Assembly: GCF_965363235.1 (NCBI RefSeq)
Contig: NC_134840.1
Location: 59,638,793-59,702,792 of the forward strand
Source: Mytilus galloprovincialis
Taxonomy: Eukaryota > Mollusca > Bivalvia > Mytilida > Mytilidae
Reading direction: 5' to 3'
Length of the DNA stretch: 64,000 nucleotides
A program made the translations under genes and the position numbers. The notes under the pieces were generated by a model. That model searched no databases. It worked only from the letters and a program-made list of their open reading frames with translations, and was not told the DNA's origin. This document shows, piece after piece, positions 3,665-64,000 of this stretch. Every line of letters starts with the position of its first letter. Within the stretch, counting starts at the first letter, position 1.

Positions 3665-3671
3665 TTTTTAG
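3665..3671 (+). promoter_or_regulatory. 3' splice site before WDR53 coding exon
   Basis: The pyrimidine-rich tract TATTTCTGTTTTTAG ends two bases before the start codon. This implies an upstream untranslated exon and decides the start. Confidence 0.65.
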
Positions 3672-3672
3672 A

Positions 3673-14800: not shown

Positions 14801-16474
14801 AAAATAATAACATGTACACGACATAGTCATCACGTGTAGTCCTTTAACCAATCATCTCCCCATAAATCTATAGGAGGTAAGATAAATATATATGTGATCT
14901 GATGCCGCATACATTTGTACATGCATGTATATCCAGAACCCTATGTTTATTTATAAATAGAGTTCCAGAGGAACAAAATCAATTATTTATTAACGAGGGG
15001 GGGGGGGGGCAAGGGGTTTAACTGTTATGCTGTTATGGGGCAATCTAATTCTTTGTTATCTGTTATTTTGAAAATATATTTGCTGTTAGCTGTTACTGTC
15101 TTATTCTTTGTTAGCTGTTTTGGGGCTTTTAGTTTTTTTGTTATCTGTTATTGTGATAATGTATTTGCTGTTAACTGTTATTGAAAATTGGAATGTTAGC
15201 ATTTTTTTTTTTGACAATCAATAGTCGGTATAAATTGAAGATCATTGGACATTGGGGTCTACCACGACTAATATGTTTGTCCCATATTCAGAGAAGGATT
15301 CCATTAACATATACCCAACTCAGAAGTGAGGTCCAGGACAATTCAAGTATATCTTATGATTATCCTTTGTAATAAATTCCATTTTTTTTATGAATGTGTA
15401 TTTAGAATTATCTTAATTTTTTGTATGAGAATAATGTTCCTTGTTTCCCGTACGAACATGTTAAATTAAAACAAATAGGAAAACATATGGCCAGGAATAT
15501 CCGACAAGGATCTCAATTAAGGACTAGGTCCTAACAACCACTTAACTTTTTATATAACATGGTACATAGACTCAGCTCTGATTCTTTTCAAAGCAGAACC
15601 AAATGCATTGTACAGTGGAAGTTCCAACCATGTACTTGGGTCTGAAGCTGCACATAACTCATTACAAACAAATATTTATTTCGTTTCAAGCCATTGTTTC
15701 CCTACTAAACTATGTATTCTACTTACTAGTACACTTGGTACAATCAAAAACCTCAGCTGATAAAAAAAATTGTTCAAATAAGGCCTTTGAAAATAGTGGA
15801 ATAAATTGCTTTTGGAGTGTCAAAATTCGTTCGAAGTACATGTACTTGATAAATTGCATGCTTATATTTGGTGCTTTTGATTTTTCTACCCAATATACCA
15901 CTTTGCCTCATAGTCTTATTAAGTAAAATTCACACACCTCATTAAACGGTCGTTTAGAAAAAGTCAGAATATTCAAACTCTTTTAGGTCATTTTTTTTTT
16001 TATTAGCAACAAAGGGAGCTTCAGTCAATATATATAAACAATACACCAACGTTTCATGAGAACTGCTCAAAGCATTTTTGAGTTATTTTTGAAAACTAGA
16101 AAATACCACCTTTTTCTAATGAATAAAATCCCTTAACTCAATAACATAAAATCGAAAATTAATAAAAATCGAAAGGGAGTTTACAACAATAGATATAAAC
16201 ATTTCAGCAAAGTTTCATGAGAACTGCTGAAAACATTTTTTGTGTTAATGTCTGAAAACTGGAAAATCCCCCCTTATAAAACCCGTTAACTCGGAAACGT
16301 AAAATCTATAATTTATAAAAATTGAAAGTGACCTCATGTTAATAGATAATAACAATTCACCATATTCCTTGCTTTGTGAAAGCATTTTTGAGATAATTAT
16401 TATCAGAAAACTGGAAAAAAAACACCAATTTTATTGAATAAAAACCCATTACCCAGAAACTTAAAATCTAAAAT

Positions 16475-16509
<35 letters not shown>

Positions 16510-42955: not shown

Positions 42956-44740
42956 GAGGGGGGGGGGGGGGGGCAAGGGGTTTAACTGTTATGCTGTTAT
43001 GGGGCAATCTAATTCTTTGTTATCTGTTATTTTGAAAATATATTTGCTGTTAGCTGTTACTGTCTTATTCTTTGTTAGCTGTTTTTGGGCTTTTAGTTTT
43101 TTTGTTATCTGTTATTGTGATAATGTATTTGCTGTTAACTGTTATTGAAAATTGGAATGTTAGCATTTTTTTTCAAGTATATCTTATGATTATCCTTTCC
43201 ATTTTTTTTATGAATGTGTATTTAGAATTATCTTAATTTTTTGTATGAGAATGATGTTCCTTGTTTCCCGTACGAACATGTTAAATTAAAACAATTCTTA
43301 ATATGACAAATAGGAAAACATATGGCCAGGAATATCCGACAAGGATCTCAATTAAGGACTAGGTCCTAACAACCACTTAACTTTTTATATAACATGGTAC
43401 ATAGACTCAGCTCTGATTCTTTTCAAAGCAGAACCAAATGCATTGTACAGTGGAAGTTCCAACCATGTACTTGGGTCTGAAGCTGCACATAACTCATTAC
43501 AAACAAATATTTATTTCGTTTCAAGCCATTGTTTCCCTACTAAACTATGTATTCTACTTACTAGTACACTTGGTACAATCAAAAACCTCAGCTGATAAAA
43601 AAAATTGTTCAAATAAGGCCTTTGAAAATAGTGGAATAAATTGCTTTTGGAGTGTCAAAATTCGTTCGAAGTACATGTACTTGATAAATTGCATGCTTAT
43701 ATTTGGTGCTTTTGATTTTTCTACCCAATATACCACTTTGCCTCATAGTCTTATTAAGTAAAATTCACACACCTCATTAAACGGTCGTTTAGAAAAAGTC
43801 AGAATATTCAAACTCTTTTAGGTCATTTTTTTTTATTAGCAACAAAGGGAGCTTCAGTCAATATATATAAACAATACACCAACGTTTCATGAGAACTGCT
43901 CAAAGCATTTTTGAGTTATTTTTGAAAACTAGAAAATACCACCTTTTTCTAATGAATAAAATCCCTTAACTCAATAACATAAAATCGAAAATTAATAAAA
44001 ATCGAAAGGGAGTTTACAACAATAGATATAAACATTTCAGCAAAGTTTCATGAGAAATGCTGAAAACATTTTTTGTGTTAATGTCTGAAAACTGGAAAAT
44101 CCCCCCTTATAAAACCCGTTAACTCGGAAACGTAAAATCTATAATTTATAAAAATTGAAAGTGACGTCATGTTAATAGATATAAACAATTCACCATATTC
44201 CTTGCTTTGTGAAAGCATTTTTGAGATAATTATTATCAGAAAACTGGAAAAAAAACACCAATTTTATTGAATAAAAACCCATTACCCAGAAACTTAAAAT
44301 CTAAAATTTATAAAAAAAAAAAAAAAAAAAAAAAAGGGAGCTCACGTCAATAGATATAAAAAAAATTTCCCAAAGTTTAATGCAAATTGTTTAAAGAGTT
44401 TTTGAGTTAATGTCCGACATGTTGACAACAGACGGACAACATTATACCATAATACGTTCCGTAAACGAGCGTATAAAAAATATTATAATATATTGAGTAG
44501 TAATTTAAACACATTCTAGATACATAAATTAATACTAAAAACAAAGTCATAGAAAATGGAATGCATTACAAAGGATTATATCCGTAATAAGAAATACTGA
44601 TTTGTCAAAGACCGAATTATTTTAATATTACATTTACTGTTATCTGTTTTTGTCCATTTTAATTCCTTGTTATCTGTTATGAGCCAAATGAATTTGCTGT
44701 TTTGCTGTTATTGGGACCCCCCTGCCCCTCCCCCCCCCCT
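42956..44740. mobile_element. Element bounded by G-run and C-run, copy 2
   Basis: Near-identical to 14995-16915 in the same orientation, with ends GAGGGGGG and CCCCCCTC. The 7-bp CATACAC is duplicated at 42949-42955 and 44741-44747. It lacks about 145 bp found in copy 1 and has a short AATTCTTAATATGACAAATA difference. No transposase frame. Confidence 0.8.
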
Positions 44741-45208: not shown

Positions 45209-45217
45209 TATAAAAGG
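45209..45217 (+). promoter_or_regulatory. TATA box of glycine-rich gene 1
   Basis: TATAAAAGG about 30 bp before a likely start near 45240. A short 5' untranslated exon ends TCTAGCG|GTAAGT at 45283. Confidence 0.65.
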
Positions 45218-45461
45218 AACGAGATGCTAAAACACAAACCACAAGCTAATCCATACCCATCTTGAATTGCCAAATATCTAGCGGTAAGTTATTTATATAA
45301 AAGTTTTCATGATATTGATAAAAAAAAAAATTTTGTCTCAATTTTTTAACAAATATTTAAAAAGAGAACTCAATTAATTCTTTATGAAACATATGCCAAA
45401 CATTTTTTTAAATTTACATCTTAAAATATAAGAAATGATTCTTATTCAGATTCCCACGAAA

Positions 45462-47871
45462 ATGATGAGTTTGATTGTTGTCGCTGCCCTCTTGGCTTGT
45501 ACTTCTGCTACATTCTACAAAGGTTAGTTAACAAGAATGCGTTGTCAAAATTGTGATTAGTTTATTTCAATGGAAATATAAATATATCGGTGAATTATTT
45601 TGTAGTACAAATACATGCATTGAGTTGAAAAAAATGCCTCTATGACAATTTGATTTAACTATAATTCTATTAGGAGGAAAAAAACCAGACAATACAATGA
45701 ACACAAATGAAACAATTAATTTTACATCAAATTTAATTATATCTGTACAATTATATTTCAATGAAAGGTTTTCTTCATTTGAGACCAATTTGCCATTAAT
45801 ATAAAGAATCTAAAAGTATACATTTTTAAATAAAGACAACAGTAGTATACCGCTATTCAGTAGTCATAAATCGATTGAGAGATAACAAATCCGGATTACT
45901 TAACTAATAAAATTAACGGTACCAATTTTCTTGCACCAGATGCGCATTTCGACAATACATGTCTCTTCAGTGATGCTCGTGGCCAAATAATTTGAAATCC
46001 AAAGCTTATATAAAAGATGAAGAGCTACAATCCAAAAGGTCCAAAAAGTATAGCCAAATCCGTGAAAGGAATCAGAGCTTTGCATGAGGGAGGTACATTC
46101 CTTAATTCATAATAATTTCTATCATTTTGTAACAGCAAATTTTAATAACACAAAAAAATCCGTATTTTCATGCCTAAAACCGAGGCAAACGGATCATATT
46201 TGAGCGTCACTGATGAGTTTTTTGTAGACGAAATGCGCGTCTGGCGTATATACTAAATTTAGTCCTGGTAGCTATGATTCATTTATATACACAAGAGGAA
46301 AACAAGGAAACAACAAAAACAATGGAAAATTTGATAACAACTTTACACATTCCCAGAAAACCAAATGTGATTTTGCAAAATCTTCTGCTGTTTAAGACAA
46401 CCTTTATACTATGTTTATATTGGAATTTTTACATATTCTGTAAAATTCAGCGTTAAAGGACATACGAGTTATTTTAAGGTATTCACAATTTGTTCACATA
46501 TTTAAGAATAAGCCACTGTACTATATTTAAGAACCTCACAATTCATACCGGAAGCTGTGAAGCCGTGAGCTGAAGTGAAAATCACGATACTTTTTAAAAG
46601 TGACCTTGGTGTGAAATAGATTCATAGACATTTTTCTATTTTTAATTCGAAACTTTGATTTATCTCAAAATTATTGTAACACGCACAGCTGATGTTTATA
46701 TGATTTTTTTTGTTGTGTGAAATCAGTAACTATAAACGTTCGCCCTTTTTGTTTAAGCTTGTTTCATGTACCATGATACTGTGGATTCATTATTATTCGT
46801 TAGATACGAATTTTCGTGGATTTCGTTGGGGCAGATGAACCACGAAATTAAATATTCAACAAATACCCAATTTTCTACAGGCTTGTATGCAGATTTCACC
46901 AAAGCTACGAGATTAAATACCCACGAACATGTAAGTTTTCCTCAATCCACAAAAATTGGTACCCAGGAAAATAAATAAATCCACAGTACCCAAAATTGTT
47001 TTATAATTTGTTTCGACATGTGTTGCAATATATATGTAAATTTATAACGTATACTTCAAATTGTAGGAAATTTCGGACCTCAGTCTGGATATCAGAGATT
47101 CGAAGGATATGGACCAATGAACTCCAACTTTGGCATGATGAGATATGGAAATCAGTACGACATGTTCAAAGGTGGATATCTAAATAATGACGGAGTTGGT
47201 GGATTCCAGAACCGCGGGTTAAATAGTGGATATAAGAAAGGTGGAACCGGAGGATATTTCAAAGATGGGAATGTTGGATATCAAAAAGGTGGAATGAGAG
47301 GACAATTTAATGGCGGAAATATTGGATATCAAAAAGGTGGAATGGGCGGACAAATCAATGGCGGAACTGGTGGATATATGAAAGACATGATGGATTCTGG
47401 GTTATATCCATCGGGATTTGAAGGATGGAACAGTTTTGGTTCTGGTTTAGGAATGCAAGGTTTAGGAGGATATCCAAAATTTGGAAACAATGGATTCGGA
47501 AAAATGGGAGGTTTTCTTGGTACCAATGGACTAAAAAAAGGTTTGTAATTATTCATCATTAACTTTCTATTTATTACCTTATACTAGTAGTTCAAAATTG
47601 AAATAAAACAAAATTTTTTTGTTCTTCATGATTCATATAAGATATTGTGTGTGATTAGAACAATCATTTAGTCTTTTAATTTCCAAAAATGGTAAGATTC
47701 TTCTTCCTGGAAAAATATGTTAGTTCTTTTCCTAAAAATATTGAATAATATAATCGAGATATTTATGTCCCAATAATTGAATTATATTTTACTGATGTAT
47801 ACTCATAATAGTTACATAGAGTTCATAGACGATACATTATGATTTTTTCTTATTTTGTAGGAGGTTATTAG
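45462..47871 (+). CDS. Secreted glycine-rich repeat protein 1
   Basis: Not a gene I recognise by name. Coding exons 45462-45522, 47067-47540 and 47861-47871 join through phase-1 GT/AG introns to 181 aa. The first exon is almost exactly a signal peptide (MMSLIVVAALLACTSA, cleavage likely after TSA). The mature chain begins TFYKGNFGPQSGYQRFEGYG and is rich in Gly, Tyr, Asn, Met and Lys without Cys. Three 16-residue repeats start GYKKGGTGG, GYQKGGMRG and GYQKGGMGG, followed by GYMKDMMDSGLYPSGFEGW, LGMQGLGGYPKFGNNGF and the end KKGGY. The tiny last exon holds only GY and the stop. Composition recalls molluscan shell-matrix (shematrin, KRMP) or byssal proteins, but no family is proven. A paralogue lies at 54163. 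An unspliced reading would end KKGL at 47548. Confidence 0.82.
45838..45903 (+). repeat. Dispersed repeat, interrupted by SINE-like insertions
   Basis: AACAGTAGTATACCGCTATT...CATAAATCGATTGAGAGATA. The family continues at about 46270 (AACAAGGAAACAACAAAAAC) after about 365 bp of inserted elements. In intron 2 of glycine-rich gene 1. Confidence 0.5.
45905..46275. mobile_element. SINE-like insertion (inverted) plus adjacent CGT-core repeat
   Basis: 45905-46187 is the complement of the 34305-34581 element (GCACCAGATGCGCATTTCGA, GATGCTCGTGGCC). 46200-46275 holds a second core copy in the other orientation, GAGCGTCACTGATGAG...GACGAAATGCGCGTCTGGCG. Confidence 0.6.
46779..46986. mobile_element. TA-flanked MITE (mariner type)
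   Basis: CTGTGGATTCATTATTATTC at the left, AATAAATAAATCCACAG at the right, TA on both sides (46777-46778, 46987-46988). 208 bp, just upstream of exon 3 of glycine-rich gene 1. Confidence 0.75.
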
Positions 47872-47961
47872 ATGAAACCAAGAATGAATGAAGGCACATC
47901 AAAGTTAAAGAAAACCAATTGTACGATACCATACTAATTTATTCGTGTTTATTTTTTTTAT

Positions 47962-47967
47962 AATAAA
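47962..47967 (+). terminator. Poly(A) signal of glycine-rich gene 1
   Basis: AATAAA 91 bp after the stop, in TTATAATAAATGTTC. The same TTTAT...TATAATAAAT arrangement occurs at the end of the paralogue. Confidence 0.75.
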
Positions 47968-48424
47968 TGTTCCAATCTGTTTTTAAATTTTACTTTGAAA
48001 ATGATTTACAAAAAGGGAAATATTTGACAATTTTATGAGATAAGATACCCATCATTATTGTTAGTTCTCATGCTACTAAATATTGTTGCTGAATACATCA
48101 CACACACAGAAAAAGTGCTAACAAAAACTAAACAAACTATGCAAAGGATAATTTCAGACTTCAGCATGGTCTTTATTTAGAAAACATATGATTTTCTATT
48201 AAGAAATGTGGTTGTATACGTAAACGAGACAGTGACACAACGAAATACCAAAAAAAAAAAAAATCAAACATAGATACGGTCATCAACAATAGAGTCTATA
48301 AATGTCTAGCTCTAAATTGTTAACCTTGAAAATTGGAAAAAAAAATAATAGAAAAATCTGTCATTAACATCGTTGATTCAATAAAAGACCTAATTAATAA
48401 CAAAATATAACTAAAATAATTACT

Positions 48425-48720
48425 ATGTTCACATAAAAGCTGGAGGTTTTGCTAGCCACAAAACCAGGTTCAATCCACCATCTTCTTAAAATGTCCTGAA
48501 CCAAGTCAGGATAATGGCATTTGTTATCTTATAGTTCGTTTCTGTGTTTGTTGCATTGTCTTTTGTTTTTGTTGCACTTCAGTGTTTCTGTTGTTTTGCT
48601 GTTTTTCTCTTATAGTTGATGTGTTTCCTTCCGTTTTAGTTTGTTACCCGGATTTGTTTTCTCTCAATTGATTTATGTCTTTCAAACAGTGGTATACTAC
48701 TGTTGCCTTTATTTATATAC
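48425..48720 (+). repeat. Composite dispersed repeat
   Basis: CTAGCCACAAAACCAGGTTC (as at 40840) runs into CACTTCAGTGTTTCTGTTGT and ends GTGGTATACTACTGTTGCCT (as at 42475). This suggests both pieces belong to one longer family. Confidence 0.55.
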
Positions 48721-49570
48721 TACTGTTGATTATTCTTCCTTTAGAGCGAGTATCATGTGATTGTCTTTAGGTCTCAATTTGAAAGTTTAAAGTGTTGCTT
48801 GTTAATCTTTGCACTTTTTACATTGTTCAGAATGAAATGATTTTTATTGTCAATAAGTGATTGCCATCCAATTGTATTGCATTAAATATTTAAGGTTAGT
48901 CTTGGACCATAACAAAATTTATACTATAGGCATTATTTTGTAAATCTAGTGCCAAAAATATAATATACACACACATATAATTGGTTACTTAAATTATACA
49001 TAATGCTGTTTTTAGATTGCACATTTTGCATCCTATACTTATTTTCGTACTATAAAACAGCAATGCTTAATTCTGTTATTTACGTACAAATGGTGTTTTG
49101 CCTAAAACAAAAAGCGTGAAAATTTAACGCAATAAGAAAGATAATATATATTGTTAGTAATAATTTCAAAGCTTTTCTTAATTAGACTTTCCCTGAGAAT
49201 AGGCATATAACGAAAACTTCTAAATTGAACACTCAATTTATTTTTTAAAAATGATGCAAAAAATGATTAAAACCTTGATGCATAATTCACAAATGTTAAA
49301 GGATTGTGTCAAGTTGTTTATTAAATTTGAAGTATGCTTCATTACATATAATACAACACTATCAAATATCAGCTAATTGCTCAATTTCATCCTATTCATT
49401 GGTGAACTTCCATTCTACAGCAGTTGTAAGGACCCAATTCTCTGGAGAACACGAAGCAAGATTTATATGAAAATTGATAATGTAATGGGACACTACGCAT
49501 TCTCAAAATGTATTGCATAAAATAAAGGTTACTGATGAAAAATTCATAGAAACAATATCATTTGACACCT
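48721..49570. other. AT-rich spacer
   Basis: No gene, inverted repeat or tandem repeat recognised. Confidence 0.35.
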
Positions 49571-49574
49571 ACAT

Positions 49575-49725
49575 GTATATAAAAAAAAAGTAAAATCACA
49601 ACAACAAAAAAATGAACGCCTACGAAAATTCAACACGGAAATTCCCCAATCAAATGGCAAAATCAAAAGCTCAAACACATCAAACGTCGAATGGATACCA
49701 ACTGTCATATTCGAAAATGTATTAT
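49575..49725 (+). repeat. Dispersed repeat (CAAATGGCAAAATCAAAAGC type)
   Basis: Also at 53816-53935. Shared landmarks: AAAAGTAAAATCACAA, AAATTCAACACGGAAA, CAAATGGCAA, AAGCTCAAACACATCAAA. Confidence 0.55.
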
Positions 49726-51640
49726 TCGATAGTTTCATGATTTATTATTTTAATTTTTTTTTCTTCAGTAAATGACATTTTCATTTTCTTGTATCCCACC
49801 CACCTCTTAAGCCATTACAAACATGGGTTGAGACTGGATATAAGTCAAATAAGATACTCTGGTGTTTCTTCTTGTGGTAAAATTGAAAACACACAATACC
49901 TTTTTGAAGGGTTTAAGCTAATATCAAAGATCAGACACTATAAGTCTTCTACTAAATCTAATATTTAAAAAATAAAGTAACTATAATGCCAATAATGTTG
50001 ATATCCTAAATATAGAACGAAATTCATAACAGTGTGGTCGACAGTAAAACGTTTATTAGTAATTGTACTGAAAAGTTTACCTTTCACTTGTTTGTCGTGG
50101 GCGATGATTTTATGCTCACTCAGTCTATCGGAGGCCTTCAAGTGGGGATTTAAATAATCATTTGTTACACATTTTGATACATAAAATGAAACTTTCTTTT
50201 CACATATCATTTAAGGAATTTATTTTAAATAATTGTTATACCATCACTTACAACAGTTTCACTTTTAAGAATATTAATGTCCAGAGCTGATATCAATAAA
50301 TAATAATAAAAAAAAAAGTTTATTCATGGTAAAAAAAAAACAAAAAAAAGTTAATAGGGACCCGCGTTATTTCAGAAAATATCTTCTTGATTAAGAGAAC
50401 AAAAACTTCTACGTTGTGATCATTTAAGAGTGGCCTTCTATTTATTCAATGCTAACCATGTGGGCTATGTTTTTTTATATACCATAAATCGATTCGTTCA
50501 TTCAGATATTTGTCAGTTTGTCTTGGCTCTTCAAGTCCAACACACAACTTCTCACGAAATTGGTATTTTTCTTACAAAAATTACATCCATGTGATGTATT
50601 CTTTTCATGGAGAATGAATGTTGCACCTTATTTTATTTGTTATCGGTTTTTTTTTGTGTGTATCATTGACGAATAAGACAACCTGAATCTTCTTTATTCA
50701 AATTTAAAACATACGAGATGGCAATTATGACACAAAATAACTAAATTAAACTTACAGCAGAAGAAAGATAATGAACATCGCTTTTATAGTCTCCTAAATA
50801 TCGAAGACGCGTGGTCTTTTTAAAAATGATGTAAATTTATAAAGGAAACAACAAACAAAATAGTTCGAATATTTATATTGGAAAAAGTAAACCGGTAAAA
50901 GTAACGGTGTGTAAATCATAACAATTATTTTATTTCAATGAAAATCAAACTGTTGAATTTTTTCCGCTGCGAGCAAATTTTTAATTTTGGTCGCATTTTG
51001 AAAATCAATAAATCTTGTATTCTTGTTGGAAGCTGCACTGTGTAGTTTATACCCGTTTTTTTCAATGCCACACAAATCCAACACAGACAAAAAAAATGGT
51101 AGGTTCAAGAAATAATTGATGCAAACTATACTTTATTGTAGTTTTAACATGGGTAGACATTATATTCGTGATTATTTTTGCCCGAGCGATATCGAAAAAC
51201 TATTATAAAAAGTGTCCTAGTTCAGTGAAAATGTACGTCATACTTATTTCCTAAACAAATAAATAAACAAACATTAATTAACATACAACACTACCAAAGG
51301 CCAGAGACTCCTTACTTGTATGATTTTGTAAAAAAATGCATCTTTTTAAAACAGTCGAAAACAAAATTGTCTGTCCAATGGAAAAGTCGAAGCCCAAAAA
51401 AGATGAACAGTGCATTATAGAAACATAGAAGCTGGTTGCAAAAGTTGACGACAAGATCTATTTTATAACTTGAGTATGGCCTAATACTATTAACCTGAAA
51501 TAAATATATTTATAGCAATTCCCTTGATACGAAAGATCTACATGTTGCCTTGGGCTTTTTTTTTCTTTTTTTTTTTTGCTCTTTGGTTGGGTTTTTGTCT
51601 CAATGACAATTCAATTTTCATTCTTATCATAGATATAACT
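49726..51640. other. AT-rich spacer
   Basis: No gene found. A short piece near 51295 (CCAAAGGCCAGAGACTCC) matches the mid-repetitive element at 9660. Confidence 0.35.
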
Positions 51641-51644
51641 GCAT

Positions 51645-51790
51645 GTTAAAATAAGAATATGAAGTGTGATAGGCAATCAGACACATTCTTTCCAGGGACC
51701 AACAGGCGTTATCAAGCTATAGGTCCCCGTATGGCCTTCGACCATTAGCAAAATACACACTTTATAGAATGAAAGCTCCAAGAGGTCTTG
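51645..51790 (+). repeat. Short dispersed repeat
   Basis: AATATGAAGTGTGATAGGCA, CCAACAGGCGTTATCAAGC and CCCGTATGGCCTTCGACC; related to the 3563 and 40398 families. Confidence 0.4.
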
Positions 51791-52118
51791 GGATGAAAAA
51801 AAAACAAACATAAAAGATGAGCGAGAAAAAAAATAGGGATACCGCATGGAAATTGGAAAATGGTCCGCAACATTAATTTAGTCAACTCACTTAGTTGAAA
51901 TTAAAGACCTGGCGAATTTTAGCCTTTTGCAATGGATGTGATGTATGCTTAAAAAAAATCATGGTTTGTTTGGACATTTTTATAAATCAAGTCTTGTTTT
52001 TAAATTATTTGCAAGTAAGTTTTAAGTCATGAACAAATAATCACTCACAGAAAGACGTCAAATCCATCAACAAAAGAAAAAATTTAATAGACGACCGACA
52101 ACGCACAGAATATCATCT

Positions 52119-52234
52119 ATGTGTTCCGGACCATATGAGTATTTGGACCATACGCATATATCATGACCATAAGGGTATACTAATATGGTCCAACCATACA
52201 CGTATGGTCCAAACACTCATAAGGTCCGGAACAT
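52119..52234. mobile_element. Palindromic MITE
   Basis: ATGTGTTCCGGACCATATGA...TTTGGACCATACG and CGTATGGTCCAAACACTCAT...TCCGGAACAT are inverted arms of about 36 bp. GGTCCA recurs several times. Confidence 0.65.
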
Positions 52235-52779
52235 ATTTTATTTGCGATCACAAATGCACGAAGACGTCCATTTCTATGTAAATTGGGTCGATTTTTTTAT
52301 AAAGACAAGATGAATGCGTTTCTGCATGTTGCCAAGTGTTTTTCACAAGTATAGAAGCAGTATAGCAGAACGGTTTAAGTTTCCTATATACACCAAATGA
52401 TACATTTTGCCAATACAATAACGTAAATGCATGCAAATTTCACAAGGTTTAATCCAAAAAGCTTTCTTACTATCCAATAACTTTCAAGTACGAAAAAGAC
52501 AGCCTGAGGGCAGAAGTATATTTTGTCTTTATGTTTCGTATTTGCACAACTTTTGAAAGTGGATTATGCATTCGTTCTAAAATAAAATTAGACCAGATAA
52601 AAGTTAAAAGATTACATAACTCGACAATCGCAATTGTTAAATCCGAAAAAGATAATCAATCAATACATGCATTCAGTAAGTCATTCTTTTTTCTGAAAGA
52701 ACATGGCTTTGCGATATCTTATTATGAAAATTGATTGTCGAAACATAACAAAAACACAAGTAAAGGACGTTTAATTAAT

Positions 52780-52995
52780 CAATATAAATCAAAACACAAA
52801 TTCCTGATTAGTATTTCGAATTTTTTTATATAGGCGTTGAGAACCTTTGGTGACCCCACGGTTTAAATGTTTATATTAAGGACGTCGTGAGCAATGGGCG
52901 TTATAGACGAACGTTCACCTAATCTGTCCCAGTCAATGGGATATTAAAGTGCGCCAATCAATGTCCATAGCCACACTGTTATGAATTCGATACTA
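52780..52995. mobile_element. Half copy of the 450-bp foldback element
   Basis: Matches the right half of the elements at 56351 and 58064: GTTGAGAACCTTTGGTGACC, AACGTTCACCTAA, GTCCCAGTCAATGG, CACACTGTTATGAATTC. Confidence 0.65.
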
Positions 52996-53700
52996 TGTTG
53001 TTAATCAGATAAGCTGAAGTAACACTGCAAGTCTTCAGAAATGTTGTAAAAATTATGAGATGCACAAGTATCGTTACGATGTAACAATATTGAGCCCGAT
53101 GTTTATGGTTAGAGAACATTTCCAAAACTGAAAATAAACTATTTTTTAATTAGTATATAAAACAGAATAATAAAGAAATAAATGTAAGTACGGATTAAGC
53201 AATTATTTTCGAATGTTAAGATAATCTGCTAAAGTCCATTATCGGATATAGTAGAAACATATATTTTTAACAAAAAGATAATTGTGTGGGAATATTTGAG
53301 CTAATAATGCCAATTAAAACATATGATAATAAAAAGTTAGAAAAATGAGACAGTAACCCAACGACATACAAAAAACACATCTTCAGGGCAATTTACATTA
53401 TTTATCAATGCAAAGAGTCAAGCTCAAAATAGTTTCGAATACATTTTATAGTAACACGCACTGATCTGCCATCAACACTCTAAGTAATCCTAAACATTAA
53501 GATATGGTGTTCGTATGCCTATGTTCCTCCCGTGGAACAGGTACCTGACAATAGAGCAGGTTTGAAAACTACAAGTTTTTTATCTCGTGTTTATTTTTTA
53601 GATCTATAACGCTAATCTCTTGTTAGTCAATGAGTACTATGATTCATATTATATAATTTTATGTTTTCATGCTACTGAAAATTGTTTATTACTATGATTT
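52996..53700. other. Spacer upstream of glycine-rich gene 2
   Basis: AT-rich, nothing recognised. Confidence 0.3.
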
Positions 53701-53701
53701 G

Positions 53702-53796
53702 ATAATTCAGAAGCCAAGCTTATAAGTTATTAAAATGTTTTAATAATTCAGAAGCCAAACTTATAAATTATCAAAACATTTTAATAATTACGATAT
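53702..53796. repeat. 46-bp tandem duplication
   Basis: ATAATTCAGAAGCCAAGCTT ... AAAATGTTTTA occurs twice, slightly diverged. Confidence 0.65.
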
Positions 53797-53815
53797 CAGT
53801 CGTAGTTAGCTAATT

Positions 53816-53935
53816 AGAAAAAAAAGTAAAATCACAAAATATTGAACTCCGAGGAAAATTCAAAACGGAAAGACCCTAATCAAATGGCAACATCAAAAGC
53901 TGAAACACATCAAATAGAATGCGCAATTGTTTTGC
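53816..53935 (+). repeat. Dispersed repeat, second copy of the 49575 type
   Basis: AAAAAAGTAAAATCACAAAA, GAACTCCGAGGAAAATTCAA, ATCAAATGGCAACATCAAAA; ends close to the TATA box of the next gene. Confidence 0.55.
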
Positions 53936-53950
53936 TGTTTATTGTCTGAC

Positions 53951-53960
53951 TATAAAAAGG
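53951..53960 (+). promoter_or_regulatory. TATA box of glycine-rich gene 2
   Basis: TATAAAAAGG, placed like the TATAAAAGG of gene 1. The short untranslated exon that follows probably ends at a GT near 54011 or 54017. Confidence 0.6.
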
Positions 53961-54162
53961 ATTTATTCTGTAGTTTCCACAAAGTTATTCCTGCACTGTG
54001 TACTTGAAGCGTAAAGGTTTGAATCTGTTTATAAAGATAATGATAAATTTGTGTATCTACTTCATTTTGTAGTAGTTTCAGTAGCAATTTTTTTAATTCA
54101 TCTAATTGAGTAACTTTTTTTAATTATTATTTTGCAAACAACTGTATCATTTTCTTTTTCAG

Positions 54163-57100
54163 ATGCAATTATTCGGGCGGCAGAAAATAATTGTGTATTT
54201 ATTGGGACTTTTGTGTGCATGTGTGTATGGATTAAAAATGGACTGGACCAGATTTCCAGATTATGGTGAGTCGCATACAATTTCTAGCCTGATCTTTTAG
54301 GCACAATGGGTCGGGTATAGTTTGGTGTGGTTTAAAAAAAAAACATAATTGTATGACACATTGTTTTTATACAGGTCACTACAAAAAAAGTAAATTACTT
54401 ACTTTCTTATACCTACGTGAATGGGAATAGTAATTTAAAAAAAATTCTTGTTGAACCGAACACATCCGATATATTTTGAAAATTAATTCTTTTTTCTTCT
54501 GGTTTAAAAACAAAAATTGGATTTTCTGTATATTCTTGGTGTATGGACTCTTACTTATTGCGTGAAATTCTGTTTGTTCATCAAAATATTATTTCAATAA
54601 CTTCAATGACTTTTTTCTTATTCGTTTCCCTAGAACACCATTATCATATACTAGTATTTGACACTTTCTTAACTACTTTTTGGAATTTTGGATCCTCAAT
54701 GGTCTTCAACTTTGTACTTGTTTGGCTTTATAACTATTTTGATATGAGCGTGACTGATGTAGACGAAACGCGCGTCTGACGTACTTAAATATAATCCTGG
54801 TACTTTTGATAACTATTCATAACATTTTAACAGTAGTAAGATTCTCACTGCCTCGAGTAAAATTAGTTTCGTATTGTATTTTCCTTCTTTTTATGGCTGT
54901 CATCATAAAAATTTTGCTCACCATGCATTGATTTTTCTTTGTTTCCCTTAAGCATTCTAATGTATGTTCCTCAAGAAAACCCCGTTCGAAAGCAGTACGT
55001 TTGGCATATTTTATTATAACCTACAAACATTTTGTTTTTACAAATTTGATTTTTCGTCATAAAAAGGAGATTTTTTTTTAAATATGAACGAGCTTTTATT
55101 CTTCACAAAACACAGATTTATATAGAAATGTTACCAGCGGAAAGTTAATTGATAGAAAAAAAAGATAATGTATTTTAGCATGATAAAAAGTAATATTATG
55201 ACAATAAAGCACATTTTAACACAAGATATCATTTTTCAATTAGAAAATTGGAGTAAAAATGGCAAAAGGGGAATGAGTGGACATGGCGGAAATGGTGGAT
55301 ATCTTAAAGACATGATGGATCCTGGATTTTATCCATCTGGATTTGAAGGATGGGACAATCCCGGCACAGGTTTAGGAATGGGGATGCAAGGTTTAGGAGG
55401 TTATCCAAAATTTGGAAACAACGGATTTAAAAAGGTTTGTTATATTTCATCATTATTTACATGTTAATCATTAACTAAAAAAAATACTATTAGTCAAATA
55501 GATAGTACATAAATCAGGGGGGAATCTAGGATTTTTGAAAGGGGGCGAAGTTTTCAAAATTTTAGCGAGCGTAGCGAGGCGAAAATTTTTGGGACCTTTT
55601 TTAGACTTAAAAAAACATAAAATAAGTGTAAAATGCACTTTTTAAACGGTTACTGACGTGGGGCATGTATTTTTTTTTATAGTTGCTGTTAAGTGTAAGG
55701 GTAGGACATTTTTTATGCTTTATTCTCCCTATTAATCATAAAACGATAGTATGGATTCAAAGCTATGTACTGATATATTTGATGTGAGCCTTTTCAGTGA
55801 AAAATAGACAGGGAAAATTCTCGTTTGTTGTATGTTAAGTGAGCATAACCTCGTTAGATTTCTTGTTATAAAAAAGATATACGCCGGGCTATTCAAAGAA
55901 CTTTACAATACGACCGACACGAGTTAAAACAGACGAACACGCAATTTTATTCAAATGTTTGGTTGTTATGTTTCACCAAACAAGATGAAGAGAAGTGAGG
56001 GTTTTTAAATCAACAAAAGGCTACGAATGGGTCTGAAGTGACAACGAATTTATGAACGACGGTCGATAAATGGAGACAGAAAGACCACACCCAGCAGTCA
56101 GGTTGCAGTCTGGTCTTGAGGGAAAAAAAACAATATATCAGTTCGGCGAAACAGCAGAACTGCAAACTTCCCCCCTCCCCCCAAAAAAAAAAATACGCCA
56201 GTTTTTTATTCATCATGTTCATTTAATGCTAAATTATTCTGTTGGAAATTTTCAGTTCTTATAGCAAAAAAGTGAATAGTATTGTTTTTAATCAAGATAC
56301 GGCCAGAATTTTTGTTCAAGGCAAAAATCAGAGTCAGATTTTTTTCACTCATAGTATGAAATTCAAAACAGTGTAGCTGTGGCCATTGATTGACCCATCA
56401 AAATCATCCATTGACTGGGACAATTTACGTGAACGTTTGTCTGTAACAACCACTGTTCATGACGTACCTACGATAGACATTTAAACTGTGGGGTCAACAA
56501 AGGTTTCTTAACGCCTTTAATTATACAATAATTCGAAAAAATAATCAGGAATAACCTTTGTGTTTTGATTTATATAATTGATATAAATCAAAATATCGTG
56601 TTATTTCTGATTAATTTTTCGAATTACTTTATTTAGGTGTTGAGAACCTTTGGTGACCCCATAGTTTAAGTGTCTTTAAAAAGTACATAGTGAGCATTGG
56701 TCGTTGCATACAAACGTTCACCTAAATTGTCCCAGTCAATGAATGATTTTAATGTGTCAATCAATGGCCACAGCTACACTGTTTTGAATTTCATACTATA
56801 TCTCATACTTCCCCCTCAAATCAAATGGTCGTACCTTAGACTTAAAATATATCTAGAGCTTATACTGAGTGGGGATCATTATTCAGCTACATGTATGTTA
56901 TTTTAGACCATGTGAAAACTTTCGAGTCAACCGAGTAAGATACAACGAGAGTTAATTAACTTATGTTCTTTAGAATAGAATGGGGTGTTTGGGGTTAAAC
57001 ATGCTCAATCCTGTGTTGCTTTGAAGGTGTCATGATTGTCAGTCTCAGCGTAAGCAATGTGTTACTGTATTTTGAATTTCAAAATGACTGAGTGACATTT

Positions 57101-57739
57101 TTTCGACGCACTCGTCAACTCCAGCACGGCTAAACACATGACTTTGACATGATAAGTAAATACCATCGAAAAAATATCTTAATAAGTAAAGATTTGTCGC
57201 ATAAAAATTAAAGACACGGGAAATGGCAAAGTTCACGAAGTCTAGTCTGATTAATCATTTTACAAAAAAAAAGGGGGGGCGGCGTCATCATTTAGGGTTA
57301 GTCTGTGGTTTGATTGTTTTTTTTTAGATATCAATACTTTTGTCAACTTTCCTTTAATTAAACGTGAACAGATGGGTTTTTTTTATGTTCAAAAGACCGC
57401 ATCTATGCAGAGCATAATTAGTTGTGTTTTTTCTCTTATTTCTTAATGAAAATCTATTCCATGTTTTTTTGCAGTTATCATCTAGATTCAATATCGGATT
57501 AACATTTAAAGCTTGTTCAAAACTTTATGGAATTCTATGAAGTTTAATAAAAAATAATTATTTATGAAATAGCATTTCGTCTGAATAAAAATTTTAGAGT
57601 ATATTTTTACTGTTTTGGATTAATTTTTAAAACAATGGATTATGATGAAAATAGTTCATAGAATTCTTACAATAGTTCTACAGAGTCCATCTTATTTTTA
57701 TATTCTCCTTTTGGTAAATTGTAGAAAGCTGTTAAATGA
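54163..57739 (+). CDS. Secreted glycine-rich repeat protein 2 (paralogue of 45462)
   Basis: Predicted 102 aa from coding exons 54163-54265, 55244-55434 and 57725-57739. The ATG follows directly on a TTTTTCAG acceptor, so an untranslated exon lies upstream. Exon 1 encodes a signal sequence with a basic start and hydrophobic core (MQLFGRQKIIVYLLGLLCAC, then VYGLKMDWTRFPDY). Exon 2 gives NGKRGMSGHGGNGGYLKDMMD, PGFYPSGFEGW and LGMGMQGLGGYPKFGNNGF, nearly the same as the C-terminal block of gene 1. The three 16-residue repeats of gene 1 are reduced to one partial repeat. The last exon gives KAVK and stop; it is supported by similarity of the acceptor, coding end and following sequence to the last exon of gene 1 (TTGTAG, then GTTA..ATGAAAC). 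Intron 2 contains a 450-bp palindrome. The last-exon choice is the least certain part. Confidence 0.7.
54600..54825 (+). mobile_element. SINE-like CGT-core element
   Basis: TTGGATCCTCAATGGTCTTC, TTGTTTGGCTTTATAACTAT and GAGCGTGACTGATGTAGACG followed by AAACGCGCGTCTGACGTA, ending TAATCCTGGTACTTTTGATA. In intron 1 of glycine-rich gene 2. The core matches that of the 34305 family. Confidence 0.6.
55513..55620. mobile_element. Possible hAT-type end fragment
   Basis: CAGGGGGGAATCTAGGATTT followed by TTGAAAGGGGGCG and an internal GCGAGCGTAGCGAGGCG resembles the CAGGGGCGGATC ends of some hAT families. No right end found. Confidence 0.3.
56351..56799. mobile_element. 450-bp foldback element, copy 1
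   Basis: Nearly complete palindrome: ATAGTATGAAATTCAAAACA at the left and the exact complement at the right; centre near 56575 (TTTATATAATTGATATAAAT). In intron 2 of glycine-rich gene 2. Confidence 0.8.
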
Positions 57740-57823
57740 AACACGAGAAAGGATGAAGAGACAACGGGCTGACGACAACATAGGATTCTGGAAAAAACTC
57801 AATTATTTATGTTTATTCTATAT

Positions 57824-57829
57824 AATAAA
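57824..57829 (+). terminator. Poly(A) signal of glycine-rich gene 2
   Basis: AATAAA 85 bp after the stop, in TTTATTCTATATAATAAATA, closely resembling the gene 1 signal in sequence and distance (91 bp there). Confidence 0.65.
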
Positions 57830-58063
57830 TATTTTGCTCTCATTTCAAACATTAGTTAGTAAATAATTGTAAACAAAGTAAATGGTTTCACAATTTTTGC
57901 AGATCCCCATGAAAGACTAAATGCCATGACGCCATTATAAAGTAGAAAAACGAGAATAAAATTACATCCTGCTTATACATAGGGAAATATTCAATGCTTT
58001 CCTGCATTACCACCAATCCCCCTTTTCCGCTTAATTCAAATAAAAAAAAACATTACAATGACA

Positions 58064-58513
58064 TTAGAATGAAATTCAAAACAGTGTGGCTGTGACCATT
58101 GATTGACACATTAAATTCATCCATTGACTGGGACAATTTACGTGAACGTTTGTCTGTAACGACCACTGTTTACGACGTACCTACGATAGACATTTAAACA
58201 GTGGGGTCACCAAAGGTTTCTTAACGCCTTTAATTATAAAATAATTCGAAAAATTAATCAGGAATAACCTTTATGTTTTGATTTATATAATTGATATAAA
58301 TCAAAACATCGTGTTATTTCTGATTAATTTTTCGAATTACTTTATTAAGGTGTTGAGAACCTTTGGTGACTCCATAGTTTAAGTGTCTTTAACAAGTACA
58401 TAATGAGCAGTGATCGTTACATACAAACGTTCACCTAAATTGTCCCAGTCAATGGATGAATTTAATATGTCAATCAATGGCCACAGCCACACTGTTTTGA
58501 ATTTCATTCTATA
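58064..58513. mobile_element. 450-bp foldback element, copy 2
   Basis: Same palindrome as 56351-56799 with a few differences (for example GTGGCTGTGACCATTGATTG). It lies just downstream of glycine-rich gene 2, so its last exon is bracketed by two copies. Confidence 0.8.
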
Positions 58514-59019
58514 TAAATAAAAAAGATCTAAGTAAGTAAGTTCCATAGTAAGATAATGGTTTAAAAGATGTCTTCTCTTTTTATAAAAATAGCAAAGTCT
58601 ATGTTTTGCTAGGGGTAATCCAAACATTTCTTTTCATCAAAATAGAATTAGAGGTGCAAAATGCTATACGATACCGATGATGTTTAAAAGTTCAAACATA
58701 AAAGAAACACAGTCTCAATGTAAGGAAGAGTTGCAAGCACAACGTTCGACGAACGAACGATAGAAGGAACAAACAAACTGACTTTAAAACACAACGCCCA
58801 CTGGACACAATCTCTTCAGTAAGCAGAGTATTATACGAAAGTTGAAAAGGGTGCATATATTTTATTAGTGGCCGCTGTTGATAAACTATCTATTAATAGC
58901 ACACATGTTATTTTTACAATATTGCATGATAGATGTTGCTTTTGTATTTACAAATATTAGATTTGTTGATTAATAATACTGACACATGACATAATTTGTA
59001 GAACTGTTAATAGTCTCAC

Positions 59020-59150
59020 GGTAAATAAAGGCAACAGTAGTATACCCGCAGTTCGAAAGTCATAAATCGATTGAGAGAAAACAATTTAGGGCTACAAATT
59101 AAAACCAAAGGAAACACATCAACAGCATAAACAAGGATATGCCATCTTGG
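59020..59150 (+). repeat. Dispersed repeat (AACAGTAGTATACC type)
   Basis: AAAGGCAACAGTAGTATACC, GTCATAAATCGATTGAGAGA, GGAAACACATCAACA; complement of the 48540 family. Confidence 0.55.
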
Positions 59151-59429
59151 TTCTTATAATTTGATCGTGTGTTAAAGAAAAAACGAAAAACAAAACAAAA
59201 CAAAACAAAAAAGGCTGCAAATGATATGTTCAGAACCGATAGAAATTAGTTGAAGGTAGAAACCAGGTTGTGATTTAACATCTTGGCCCAGAGGCAAAAT
59301 AAAATAAAGGGCCATTGTTATGAGGTCACTTGAAAAGACAACGTAAACAAAGTCATACTTTAAAATCAAATGCCAAGACATAAAGTTTGTGATAACTACA
59401 ATTTGTAGAATACAGATTAGGTATACATG

Positions 59430-59940
59430 TATATTGATATTGTCAGATTTATAAATTCATTGTTTACAAAACTTTTGAATTTTTGAAATACTAAGGTTTT
59501 TCTGCCTCAGGAATTGATTACCTTAGCTGTATTTGGTTTTTTTTGGAGGGGGGGAGGAATTTGGGTTCTCAATGGTCTTCAACTTCGTACTTTTTTTTTG
59601 TTTTAAGCGTCACTGTTGAGTCTTTTGTAGAAGAAATGTGCGTCCGGCGTAAATACAAAATTCAATCCTGGTATCTATACTGAGTTTATTTACAACCACT
59701 GGGTCGATGCCACTGCTGGTGGAGTTTTACTTCCCTGAGGGTATCACCAGCTCAGTAGTCAGCACTTCTGTGCTCACATGAATTATCATTGATATGGTCA
59801 TATTTATAAATTAAGTGTTTACAAAATATTTAACCTTTTTAACTTTTTTGGTTTCGAGCGTCACTTGTGAATCTTTTGTAGACGAAACGCGCGTCTGGTG
59901 TCAACTCAAAATTTAATCCTGGTATCTTTGATGTGTTTAT
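59430..59940 (+). repeat. Tandem CGT-core repeat, about 1.5 units
   Basis: Two cores, AGCGTCACTGTTGAGTCTTT...GTGCGTCCGGCG near 59610 and GAGCGTCACTTGTGAATCTT...CGCGCGTCTGG near 59860, each followed by AATCCTGGTATCT. A block between them has CCACTGGGTCGATGCCACTG and CAGCTCAGTAGTCAGCAC. Confidence 0.6.
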
Positions 59941-60079
59941 CTAAGCAATGACTGCACGTTTCGATATATGCGGGAAAGAAATTTATTAACACATTATGGC
60001 CTTTGTCCCTTTAGCACCTCATTTGGAAATGCTTTACAATCAAAATATTATATTTTGGGACATAGATTCATTTATAATA

Positions 60080-60270
60080 GAACAGTGAAACAGTAGTATA
60101 CCGCTGTTCTATAGTCATTAATTGATATAGACAAAACAAATCCGGGTTACAAACTAAAACTGATGGAAATACATTAAACATAACAGGAAAACAATGAAAC
60201 AACAGAAACACTGAAGTGCAACAAAAAACCAAACGACAATACAAGGCACACAGAAACGATCTATGAGAAA
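60080..60270 (+). repeat. Dispersed repeat (AACAGTAGTATACC type), longer copy
   Basis: GAAACAGTAGTATACCGCTG through AACAATGAAACAACAGAAAC to GTGCAACAAAAAACC; complement of 48540-48715. Confidence 0.55.
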
Positions 60271-60484
60271 ACAACATTTTCTTTGCTACAGGACATTGTA
60301 AGAAAAATGGTGGGTTGATCCTGGCTTTTTGCCTTGCCAAACCTCGCACTTTTATGGCAATGTTAAACATAACAATAACGTGACAACATTACATGACAGG
60401 ACTACAAATAAATGGAAGAACATTTAGGACAGAAATACACAAATAAATAAAACAATAGAACATTTCGACATGCTAATATTTATC

Positions 60485-60715
60485 AGGTACCAGGCTTATA
60501 ATTTAATACGCCAGACGCGTATTTCGTTTACATAAGATTCATAAGTGACGCTCATGTATCTTTGAAGAAAGCCAAACAAAGTTGATGACCAAAAATTAAT
60601 GACCAAGAAGTAATAAATGAAGAAAGCCAAACAAAGTTGATGACCAAAAATTAATGACCAAGAAGTAATAAATGAAGAAAGCCAAACAAAGTTGATGACC
60701 AAAAAAGTTGTGGCA
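60485..60715 (-). mobile_element. CGT-core element with internal 55-bp tandem repeat
   Basis: The complement carries the core ACGCGTCTGG and GAGCGTCACTTATGAATCTT. Its body segment has been tandemly amplified three times (about 60565-60707; unit begins GAAGAAAGCCAAACAAAGTT). Confidence 0.65.
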
Positions 60716-61530
60716 AATAAAGCTAAGGTTATCTGTCTAATATAAGAAAATCCTTAGTATTTAGACACATTTATACTTTTACAAACAGCAAACTTATAAA
60801 AATGAACGTATAATAGATATACATGTCAATACCAAAGACCGTACCTAACCACAGAATAAAAACGAACACGTAAAACAACCTAGGTCAGCACACAAAAACA
60901 GTACAAAAGAACCACGCATTGTCTTTCATTCGTCTTTCTATTGAACACCATACTAAGCGTAACACAGAAAAACAAGAAAATAAGTGTAATCATTCGAAAA
61001 CCAAACACAAACATTACGGATTTTAGAATTAAGGGAGGGGACTTCAACAAAAAAAATTATTCTTTCCCAAATATTCAGTGTACAAAATAAGTGCTCAAAA
61101 CACAAAATTCAAATTTGTGGTAAAAAAGCATTAGAGTACTAAATGCTTGATTTTGTGCACACATTCTATACTCCAAGTACTGAGTAAAGTGTAATAACCG
61201 TAGGTCTAGTAAATTGCTGCTTCTGATCCTGAGTAGGATAAATAGTGTGTAAGTCTGACACAGAAAAATACGAAAATAAGTGCTATTATAATAGAACAAA
61301 AAAAATATGTTGTTTTGAAAAATAGGGGAGGACCAACAAAAACTGTTTAGTCCCAAGTACCTGTGGAAATGATTGCATCGGCTTACACCAAGATCCATTA
61401 ACTTTTTAAATCCTGTACATATAATGTGCATGGCCTGGCAAAATTAATCCTTTTGTTTTGTTTTCTTTTATATTCAACCTACATGTACTTGCATTCAGAT
61501 AAAGACATGTGAAAGAAACTGATCAATAAA
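60716..61530. other. AT-rich spacer before the satellite
   Basis: The 118-codon minus-strand frame at 61075-61431 has no recognisable features. GACACAGAAAAA.A.GAAAATAAGTG occurs twice (about 60962 and 61258), a short diverged duplication. Confidence 0.35.
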
Positions 61531-61550
61531 TTTGGTTGGTATAGACAACT

Positions 61551-63325
61551 AAATACATGGCAGGTCTATTTGTACACTATTTATACACTGATAGGTATCC
61601 ACTTCTGATACATGGCAGGTCTATTTATACACTATTTATACACTGACAGGCATCCACTTCTAATACATGGCAGGTCTATTTATACACTATTTATACACTG
61701 ACAGGTATCCACTTCTAATACATGGCAGGTCTATTTATACACTATTTATACACTGACAGGCATCCACTTCTAATACATGGCAGGTCTATTTATACACTAT
61801 TTATACACTGACAGGCATCCACTTCTAATACATGGCAGGTCTATTTGTACACTATTTATACACTGACAGACATCCACTTCTAATACATGGCAGGTCTATT
61901 TGTACACTATTTATACACTGATAGGTATCCACTTCTAATACATGGCAGGTCTATTTGTACACTATTTATACACTGATAGGTATCCACTTCTAATACATGA
62001 CAGGTGTATTTATACACTATTTATACACTGACAGGTATCCACTTCTAATACATGGCAGGTCTATTTATACACTATTTATACACTGACAGGCATCCACTTC
62101 TAATACATGGCAGGTCTATTTATACACTATTTATACACTGACAGGCATCCACTTCTAATACATGGCAGGTCTATTTGTACACTATTTATACACTGACAGA
62201 CATCCACTTCTAATACATGGCAGGTCTATTTGTACACTATTTATACACTGACAGGCATCCACTTCTAATACATGGCAGGTCTATTTGTACACTATTTATA
62301 CACTGACAGGCATCCACTTCTAACACATGGCAGGTCTATCTGTACACTATTTATACACTGACAGGCATCCACTTTTATGGTTAGTATAGACAACTAAATA
62401 CATGACAGGTCTATTTATACACTATTTATACACTGACAGGTATCCACTTCTAATACATGGCAGGTCTATTTATACACTATTTATACACTGACAGGCATCC
62501 ACTTCTAATACATGGCAGGTCTATTTATACACTATTTATACACTGACAGGCATCCACTTCTAATACATGGCAGGTCTATTTGTACACTATTTATACACTG
62601 ACAGACATCCACTTCTAATACATGGCAGGTCTATTTGTACACTATTTATACACTGACAGGCATCCACTTCTAATACATGGCAGGTCTATTTGTACACTAT
62701 TTATACACTGACAGGCATCCACTTCTAACACATGGCAGGTCTATCTGTACACTATTTATACACTGACAGGCATCCACTTTTATGGTTAGTATAGACAACT
62801 AAATACATGGCAGGTCTATTTGTACACTATTTATACACTGACAGGCATCCACTTTTAATACATGACAGGTCTATTTGTACACTATCTATACACTGACAGA
62901 CATCCACTTTTAATACATGACAGGTCTATTTGTACACTATTTATACACTGACAGGTCTATTTATACACTATTTATACACTGACAGGCATCCACTTTTAAT
63001 ACATGACAGGTCTATTTATACACTATTTATACACTGACAGGCATCCACTTTTAATACATGACAGGTCTATTTGTACACTATTTATACACTGACAGGTCTA
63101 TTTATACACTATTTATACACTGACAGGCATCCACTTTTAATACATGACAGGTCTATTTGTACACTATTTATACACTGACAGACATCCACTTTTAATACAT
63201 GACAGGTCTATTTATACACTATTTATACACTGACAGGCATCCACTTCTAATACATGGCAGGTCTATTTGTACACTATTTACACACTATTTGTACACTATT
63301 TATACACTGACAGACATCCACTTTT
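61551..63325. repeat. 55-bp satellite array, about 32 units
   Basis: The unit runs AATACATGGCAGGTCTATTT, ATACACTATTTATACACTGA, CAGGCATCCACTTCT. Variants alternate in ATTTATAC/ATTTGTAC and in GGCATCC/GGTATCC/GACATCC. A 20-bp extra spacer (TGGTTAGTATAGACAACTAA) occurs near 61534, 62379 and 62784. The stretch between the last two is a seven-unit block of about 405 bp that repeats the preceding seven units. Units after 62860 lose their regularity. Confidence 0.92.
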
Positions 63326-64000
63326 ACTTCTCTTTTCATCAGAAATATTTGTGTACTTGATCTTCTTTTGAAAATTATTCCTAAAAATATACTGTATAGG
63401 GTTGGTTATTTTTGTCGTTATTTGCTGTCTTATTGAAGTATACTCATTTTTGTTCGAAAACCAAATGCAGTAATTTGCTTGGTTAATTATTGAGTCAAAG
63501 TACGATAAATCGTACTCAATATTTTGATGGAAGAACGATTATCTGCCTTATTGAAAATGATTTGTATTCTACTGTCTCCTAATATTATGATGGGAATGGT
63601 CTGGAAGATGTGGACCAAAAGGACTTTTTTAAAATTTATTCATACAAACTGGCAAATATAAACGTAAAACCTTTCAAAATAGTTTTAAGTGAAGGTCATA
63701 AACCAACAAAGATATGTAGACGATGATTTCTGATTCTCTGTTTGAAGTTTCTATGGTTTATTTTTTCTGCATCCAACGCTTCTTTAATTCGTTACTAAAA
63801 TGTAGTAATAGGATTATATTCAAATGTTCCCTGCGTATTTGTCATTAACTTACTGGAATATATTGAAAACGTACCATTTGGACTTTTGGAAATTTTCATT
63901 TGCCGACTCCCTTCTTGATTAAATAATGTGTCCACTTATCACAAACACATTGATCAACGAAACATCTCGTCTTCCAAATCGGAAGATATTGACATGTCGA
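63326..64000. other. AT-rich flank
   Basis: No gene or repeat recognised at the window end. Confidence 0.35.

Follow-up and report, generated by a model that had tools for sequence, protein, structure and literature searches.

A cluster of predicted secreted glycine-rich protein genes in the mussel Mytilus galloprovincialis includes probable chimeras with a front half matching a prohormone-4 gene

Mollusc secretomes are rich in lineage-restricted proteins, whose genes rarely show where their promoters and secretion signals came from. A review covers domain shuffling in mantle secretomes (PMC4897951), and uncharacterised G-rich proteins are listed in the Mytilus shell proteome (PMC4517812). 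Capture of a promoter together with a signal sequence is already known from Schistosoma japonicum, as described in PMC3434034. In the oyster, mantle and visceral ganglia contain high transcript levels of the neuropeptide gene Cragi-prohormone-4, whose peptides MSVDFSRL and PYLLS were detected by mass spectrometry (PMC8398477). Here we describe two genes for glycine-rich proteins, A1 and B1, in a 64,000-nucleotide stretch of Mytilus galloprovincialis DNA (C3:59638793-59702792 on contig NC_134840.1, the window below). They belong to a cluster with the gene order A1, B1, A2, B2, A3, all on the same strand and spanning within 47 kb, and the two B genes have a front half that matches a prohormone-4 gene.

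The reading we favour, with a probability of roughly 0.6, is that these genes form a lineage-specific family of secreted, glycine-rich, low-complexity proteins, the B branch of which would have been re-wired by capture of a leader exon. Genome searches covered the assembly of 1,384,861,812 bases in 331 contigs; they score the best candidates only, and very distant relatives might escape them. Six repeats of AKPSYPPTYK, the Mytilus foot-protein-1 decapeptide, matched 60/60 residues on C4, with 15 of the 19 reported matches inside one gene (150 of 376 candidates scored), in keeping with a Mytilus genome. With the B signal-peptide exon as query, one further relative was found in the genome, at C3:53909084 (74% identical over 31 residues, expectation value (E) 1.5e-9; 3/3 candidates scored, E up to 10). 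It belongs to a single-copy prohormone-4 (IDLSRF-like) gene at C3:53909084-53920659, on the same chromosome and 5.78 Mb from the cluster. B1 is composed of the following parts:

53620..54255, + strand: prohormone-4 homology, running from the 5' flank of that gene through exon 1 and intron 1 into the signal-peptide exon and interrupted by an inserted repeat of ~95 base pairs (bp)
53951..53959, + strand: TATA box, kept in B2; a weaker TAATAAG stands at the corresponding place in the prohormone-4 gene
54163..54265, + strand: exon 2, MQLFGRQKIIVYLLGLLCACVYGLKMDWTRFPDY, ending in phase 1
55244..55434, + strand: exon 3, with the GKR site and then the A-type block; A homology begins at ~55263
57725..57739, + strand: last coding part, KAVK and stop, with AATAAA at 57824; A homology at 57285-57834

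When B1 was aligned with the prohormone-4 gene, the main piece gave a blastn E of 1.7e-40. Identical bases numbered 116/150 in the 5' flank (77%), 68/89 in the region of TATA box and exon 1 (76%), 120/154 in intron 1 (78%) and 78/91 in exon 2 (86%), and beyond exon 2 the figure was 67/149 (45%). The other exons of the prohormone-4 gene are confined to its own locus (3 matches among 45 scored candidates, E up to 0.01). B exons 3-4 matched A3 instead, with 83% identity over 172 bp and 72% over 566 bp. B1 as a plain copy of A1 was rejected, since its 5' half matches the prohormone-4 gene. The prohormone-4, A and B genes all have a phase-1 end to their first coding exon, so the B join stays in frame. 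Donor and product both survive on one chromosome, and the join is narrowed to ~1 kb (window 54255-55263).

The prohormone-4 gene as recipient and B as the source was also considered and rejected, because the prohormone-4 protein has the complete layout known from oyster. In the layout shared with Cragi-prohormone-4 (PMC8398477), MKIDFSRL directly follows the mussel signal peptide, with 6/8 residues as in oyster MSVDFSRL, and the PY peptide reads PYIE versus oyster PYLLS. The LDL-receptor class A domain (PF00057) scored 25.5 bits on the first two coding exons (cut-off 24.1) and 22.9 bits, slightly under that cut-off, on the full protein. No Cys follows this domain, leaving a cysteine-free C-terminus. 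An NCBIfam run, made with this protein only, gave no match to it. B1 and B2 have neither the LDL-receptor class A domain nor the prohormone-4 C-terminus (no Pfam match, and those exons lie only at the donor locus), and B is therefore not a prohormone-4.

As for the second half of B, the 60-residue C-terminal block was used as query, and five loci were matched across the whole genome (E 3.0e-30 to 8.1e-15; 5/5 candidates scored), all inside 45 kb of one chromosome. The whole of A1 exon 3 gave seven matches at E up to 10, every one in the same five genes (20 candidates scored). A preliminary description of this DNA had presented A1 and B1 as a tandem pair of unrecognised secreted glycine-rich proteins that share a C-terminal block, had supposed that the family grows by duplication, and had proposed to look for paralogues beyond the window. 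The shared block proved to be real, and three additional genes of the cluster, A2, B2 and A3, were found there. A dispersed repeat family as the source of the block is ruled out by its restriction to five genome places in a single cluster. In a self-comparison, B1-A2 and B2-A3 appeared as copies of one unit, offset by 23-25 kb with main blocks 95-98% identical, in agreement with growth by duplication. The wording "tandem pair" did not survive: the second gene is a chimera with a prohormone-4 front half, and the family has five genes, one of them with a nonsense codon. Both gene models held, with open frames, GT-AG coding introns, consistent phases, and TATA boxes and splice sites in the places given for them; the AATAAA, put at 85-91 bp past the stop, lies at 91 bp in A1 and 85 bp in B1. 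The first coding intron is in phase 1 in 5/5 genes; for the second, the phase is 1 in A1, A2 and A3 and 0 in B1 and B2. The A1 gene and the duplicated unit are laid out as follows:

45209..45217, + strand: A1 TATA box, TATAAAAG, conserved in A2 and A3
45239..45283, + strand: A1 untranslated exon 1, start guessed ~30 bp past the TATA box; donor at 45284
45450..45522, + strand: A1 exon 2, with start codon at 45462, signal peptide MMSLIVVAALLACTSATFYKG and a phase-1 end
47067..47540, + strand: A1 exon 3, glycine-rich body and conserved tail block
47861..47871, + strand: A1 last coding part, GGY and stop, with AATAAA at 47962
52990..64000, no strand: in-window part of the tandem-duplicated unit B1-A2 (copy B2-A3 further right), main blocks 95-98% identical

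The A1 coding exons (45462-45522, 47067-47540 and 47861-47871) give a product of 181 amino acids with 28.7% G, 8.8% N and 7.7% Y and a net charge of +9. B1 and B2 have 102 and 104 amino acids, with 21.6% G and 5.9% Y in B1. The untranslated exons of A and B were placed by donors conserved between paralogues alone: the A1 exon 1 sequence and donor are conserved in A2 and A3 (the A3 donor being GTAAAT), and the probable untranslated exon of B1 ends at 54010. Between A1 and A3, identity was 72% over 520 bp of exon 3 and 79% over 109 bp around exon 2, with TATA box and exon 1 also kept, as against 46.5, 52.5 and 53.8% in the three intron stretches compared. The ratio of replacement to silent substitution rates (dN/dS) for this pair was 0.53 over 156 codons (bootstrap P(dN<dS) 0.993). 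Since the exons are conserved beyond the introns and the ratio is 0.53, the A1 gene model is more than chance. In this assembly, A2 (C3:59705384-59707834, right of the window) reads TAG in frame at a position of exon 3 that is a Tyr codon in A1 and A3; its model is otherwise intact. That the products carry a signal peptide and are glycine-rich was borne out by inspection and homology for the former and by composition for the latter. "Unrecognised" also remained apt, as the three proteins run against Pfam (A1, B1 and B2) gave no match there and A1 gave none in PDB. Structure prediction of A1 exon 3 from an alignment of four sequences gave no fold (mean predicted local distance difference test score (pLDDT) 42.6); this absence fits a disordered protein, the prediction itself being uninformative.

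A ~450-bp inverted-repeat element was observed at window positions 52770-53005, 56351-56799 and 58065-58514 and at three places in C3:53890001-53930000. Its copies lie near the B genes as well as near the prohormone-4 gene, and the left edge of the tandem duplication (52990) is the end of one copy. The element was considered for a role in the fusion and not counted, being too frequent here.

The silent divergence (dS) was 0.28-0.36 between B and its prohormone-4 donor and 0.21-0.23 between B and the A3 block. Both halves of B are thus similarly far from their donors, a pattern as expected of one fusion. Values of 0.31 (all codons) and 0.48 (block) were obtained for A1-A3, 0.54 for A1-B, and 0.01-0.02 for A2-A3 and B1-B2. 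From this series, A1 split off first, then B formed, and then the unit doubled.

These comparisons suggest the following course of events. The predicted products of A1 and A3 consist of a signal peptide, a body rich in Gly, Asn, Tyr and Met, and the conserved tail block; A2 is interrupted by its stop codon. A prohormone-4 5' fragment, comprising the flank, the untranslated exon, the intron and the signal-peptide exon ending at a phase-1 intron, may have landed upstream of a 5'-truncated A gene, to which the captured leader would be spliced in frame. The chimera and its neighbour would later have been doubled by the recent tandem duplication. The chimera is presumably transcribed, and the captured promoter would place the tail under prohormone-4-like control. 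The proteins may be unstructured secreted matrix components, in which the tail block could serve assembly or binding. Secretion and a biased Gly/Tyr composition, as in shell-matrix or byssal proteins, are present in A1 and B1, and the resemblance to shell, periostracum or byssal components is, judged from these features, in kind only. If expressed, the chimera would make it possible to test directly what follows when a structural protein acquires the promoter and leader of a neuropeptide gene: production in new cells, or a new peptide signal.

The conserved block had been described as non-repetitive and perhaps functional, and constraint on it was indeed found between A1 and B (dN/dS 0.25-0.27, bootstrap P(dN<dS) 0.996-0.999). 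On 43 block codons of A1, A3 and B2, 3 sites of which are ambiguous, the replacement:silent counts per branch were 1:3 for B, 4:7 for A1 and 11:0 for A3 (Fisher P 0.009 for A3 vs B). Given these counts and the nonsense codon of A2, the block has been better preserved in the chimera than in the full-length copies that arose later. As far as the sequences indicate, A1 and B have retained the block and A3 has changed it freely, through relaxation or adaptation, and relaxation on the A3 side is favoured because A2 has a stop codon. Taken at the level of sequence, the alignments demonstrated the two-part ancestry, the phase compatibility, the open B frames, the five genes and the A1-B tail constraint.

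Several observations weigh against a matrix-protein family with a working chimeric branch. The block ratio between A3 and B was 0.94-0.97, from small counts, which we read as changes that occurred in A3. Comparison of B1 with B2 gives 14 replacement differences and a single silent one (dN/dS 3.55, bootstrap P(dN<dS) 0.027), and therefore no constraint is seen between the young copies. For the captured signal peptide relative to its donor, dN/dS was 0.24 over 24 codons (bootstrap 0.961-0.967; over 31 codons 0.842 for B1), so that constraint on it is only suggestive. B exon 3 also has a weak-looking acceptor (TCAATTAG). Moreover, the data point neither to shell nor to byssus in particular, and a glycine-rich secreted protein of another mussel is reported as gill-specific. 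The 14:1 count, together with the stop codon in adjacent A2, would also be expected if B1 and B2 were non-working, that is, if a duplicated prohormone-4 5' fragment just happened to adjoin a truncated A gene and chance alone had so far kept the frames open. Both B copies, however, have open frames and splice signals, their first join is phase-matched and in frame, and the block took few replacements on the B branch; we regard a non-working B pair as improbable.

The differences between B1 and B2 are concentrated between the signal peptide and the block, with 7 events in 90 nucleotides, a stretch chosen after looking; 13/646 overlapping windows reach 7 events. Within sequence otherwise ~97% identical between the copies, B1 54232-54265 shows a reciprocal TGG/TTT exchange relative to B2, giving DWTRF in B1 and DFTRW in B2 by two adjacent base changes each.

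This region bears on whether B1 and B2 are young peptide precursors, with a diverged IDLSRF-like peptide still supplied by the captured leader and the glycine-rich tail serving as its carrier or arising as a by-product. The predicted products would be LKMDWTRFPDYENWSKN (B1) and LKMDFTRWPGYKNWNKN (B2) after the signal peptide, released by convertase at Lys-Arg and amidated from Gly. The core motif is retained (LKMDWTRF in B1 and LKMDFTRW in B2 versus MKIDFSRL in prohormone-4), the oyster counterpart MSVDFSRL is a detected peptide (PMC8398477), and Gly-Lys-Arg occurs in both B copies. Their Lys-Arg is at residue 42, that of the prohormone-4 protein is at 41, and A1, A2 and A3 lack KR. On such grounds B1 and B2 might be chimeric prohormones, driven by the captured prohormone-4 promoter, whose diverged IDLSRF-like peptides are released in amidated form and are already diversifying between the copies (DWTRF vs DFTRW). 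If this were true, a neuropeptide gene would have given rise to a new secreted signal, carried by the tail of a glycine-rich matrix protein. We consider it unlikely, though not strikingly so. Conservation of the A-type tail block, as seen in B, would be unnecessary for a by-product, and the would-be peptide coincides with the stretch of greatest B1/B2 difference. The donor's site following the peptide has also been lost, the donor having RQIRRPYIEKRNNQCS where B has just PDY or PGY ahead of the splice. A matrix-protein family with leader-exon capture thus continues to be preferred.

Other features of the window were recorded as well. A 1.57 kb stretch is present in two copies that are 97.7% identical (15342-16910 and 43172-44739), the second directly upstream of A1; both contain the same 114-residue frame (FFSKQNQMHC...), which has no Pfam match. 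Tandem repeats of 78 bp, with a frame open throughout and a 26-residue unit, occupy 31373-32037 and 33247-34304. They reached 32.0 bits with Pfam DUF4166 (cut-off 23), with no single stretch passing, and were read as a chance effect of low complexity. One open frame at 3622-4716 encodes a WD40 repeat protein (Pfam WD40 1.1e-24), which we take to be WDR53-like. On the minus strand there are a fragment like the eIF4E end at 9485-9745 (Pfam IF4E 3.3e-5, 24.1 bits, under the cut-off of 28.7) and a GDSL-lipase-like fragment at 119-472 (Pfam PF13472 1.2e-4, under the cut-off).

Among known systems, the myticalins (PMC12294457) resemble the A/B genes in gene layout and tandem clustering. Their untranslated exon 1, signal-peptide exon and phase-1 intron recur in the A/B genes, as would be expected if the family were defensive (mucosal or antimicrobial glycine-rich peptides) and not structural. 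They differ in their Arg-rich cationic mature peptide with an anionic extension, which is absent from the A/B compositions. No Arg/Pro-rich mature part is seen in the cluster, the net charge of A1 is weak for its 181 residues, and according to the myticalin paper bivalves have no known glycine-rich antimicrobial peptide. Mytilisepta primers had no match in the cluster, their best sites, with 6 and 5 mismatches, lying elsewhere in 171 kb, which is a weak test across genera. A defensive role thus seems quite improbable.

In the open literature, six sequence motifs of the cluster were unmatched, and no matching named protein appeared in work on glycine-rich mussel shell and byssus proteins, mainly in titles and abstract openings. 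The chimera is likewise undescribed in the titles and abstract openings on these motifs, on chimeric neuropeptide genes and on prohormone-4 with Mytilus, a coverage outside which most subscription journals lie. The low-complexity proteins of mantle secretomes, shell matrix and byssus (PMC4897951, PMC4517812) are, like A/B, short, secreted, glycine-rich, lineage-restricted, shuffled and duplicated; the A/B proteins, predicted from their genes, match no named member and have a non-repetitive tail block. With prohormone-4, the B genes share homology from the flank through the untranslated exon and intron 1 to the signal-peptide exon, as well as the core motif after the signal peptide and a Lys-Arg at a near-equal residue; in B, a glycine-rich tail takes the place of the missing PY peptide, LDL-receptor class A domain and cysteine-free C-terminus. 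The closest parallel in mechanism is the leader capture described in Schistosoma japonicum (PMC3434034), in which a promoter and signal-sequence exon were duplicated onto other bodies with repeats nearby. The source there is newly evolved and has many dispersed copies, whereas here it is an old neuropeptide gene that took part in one fusion, later doubled.

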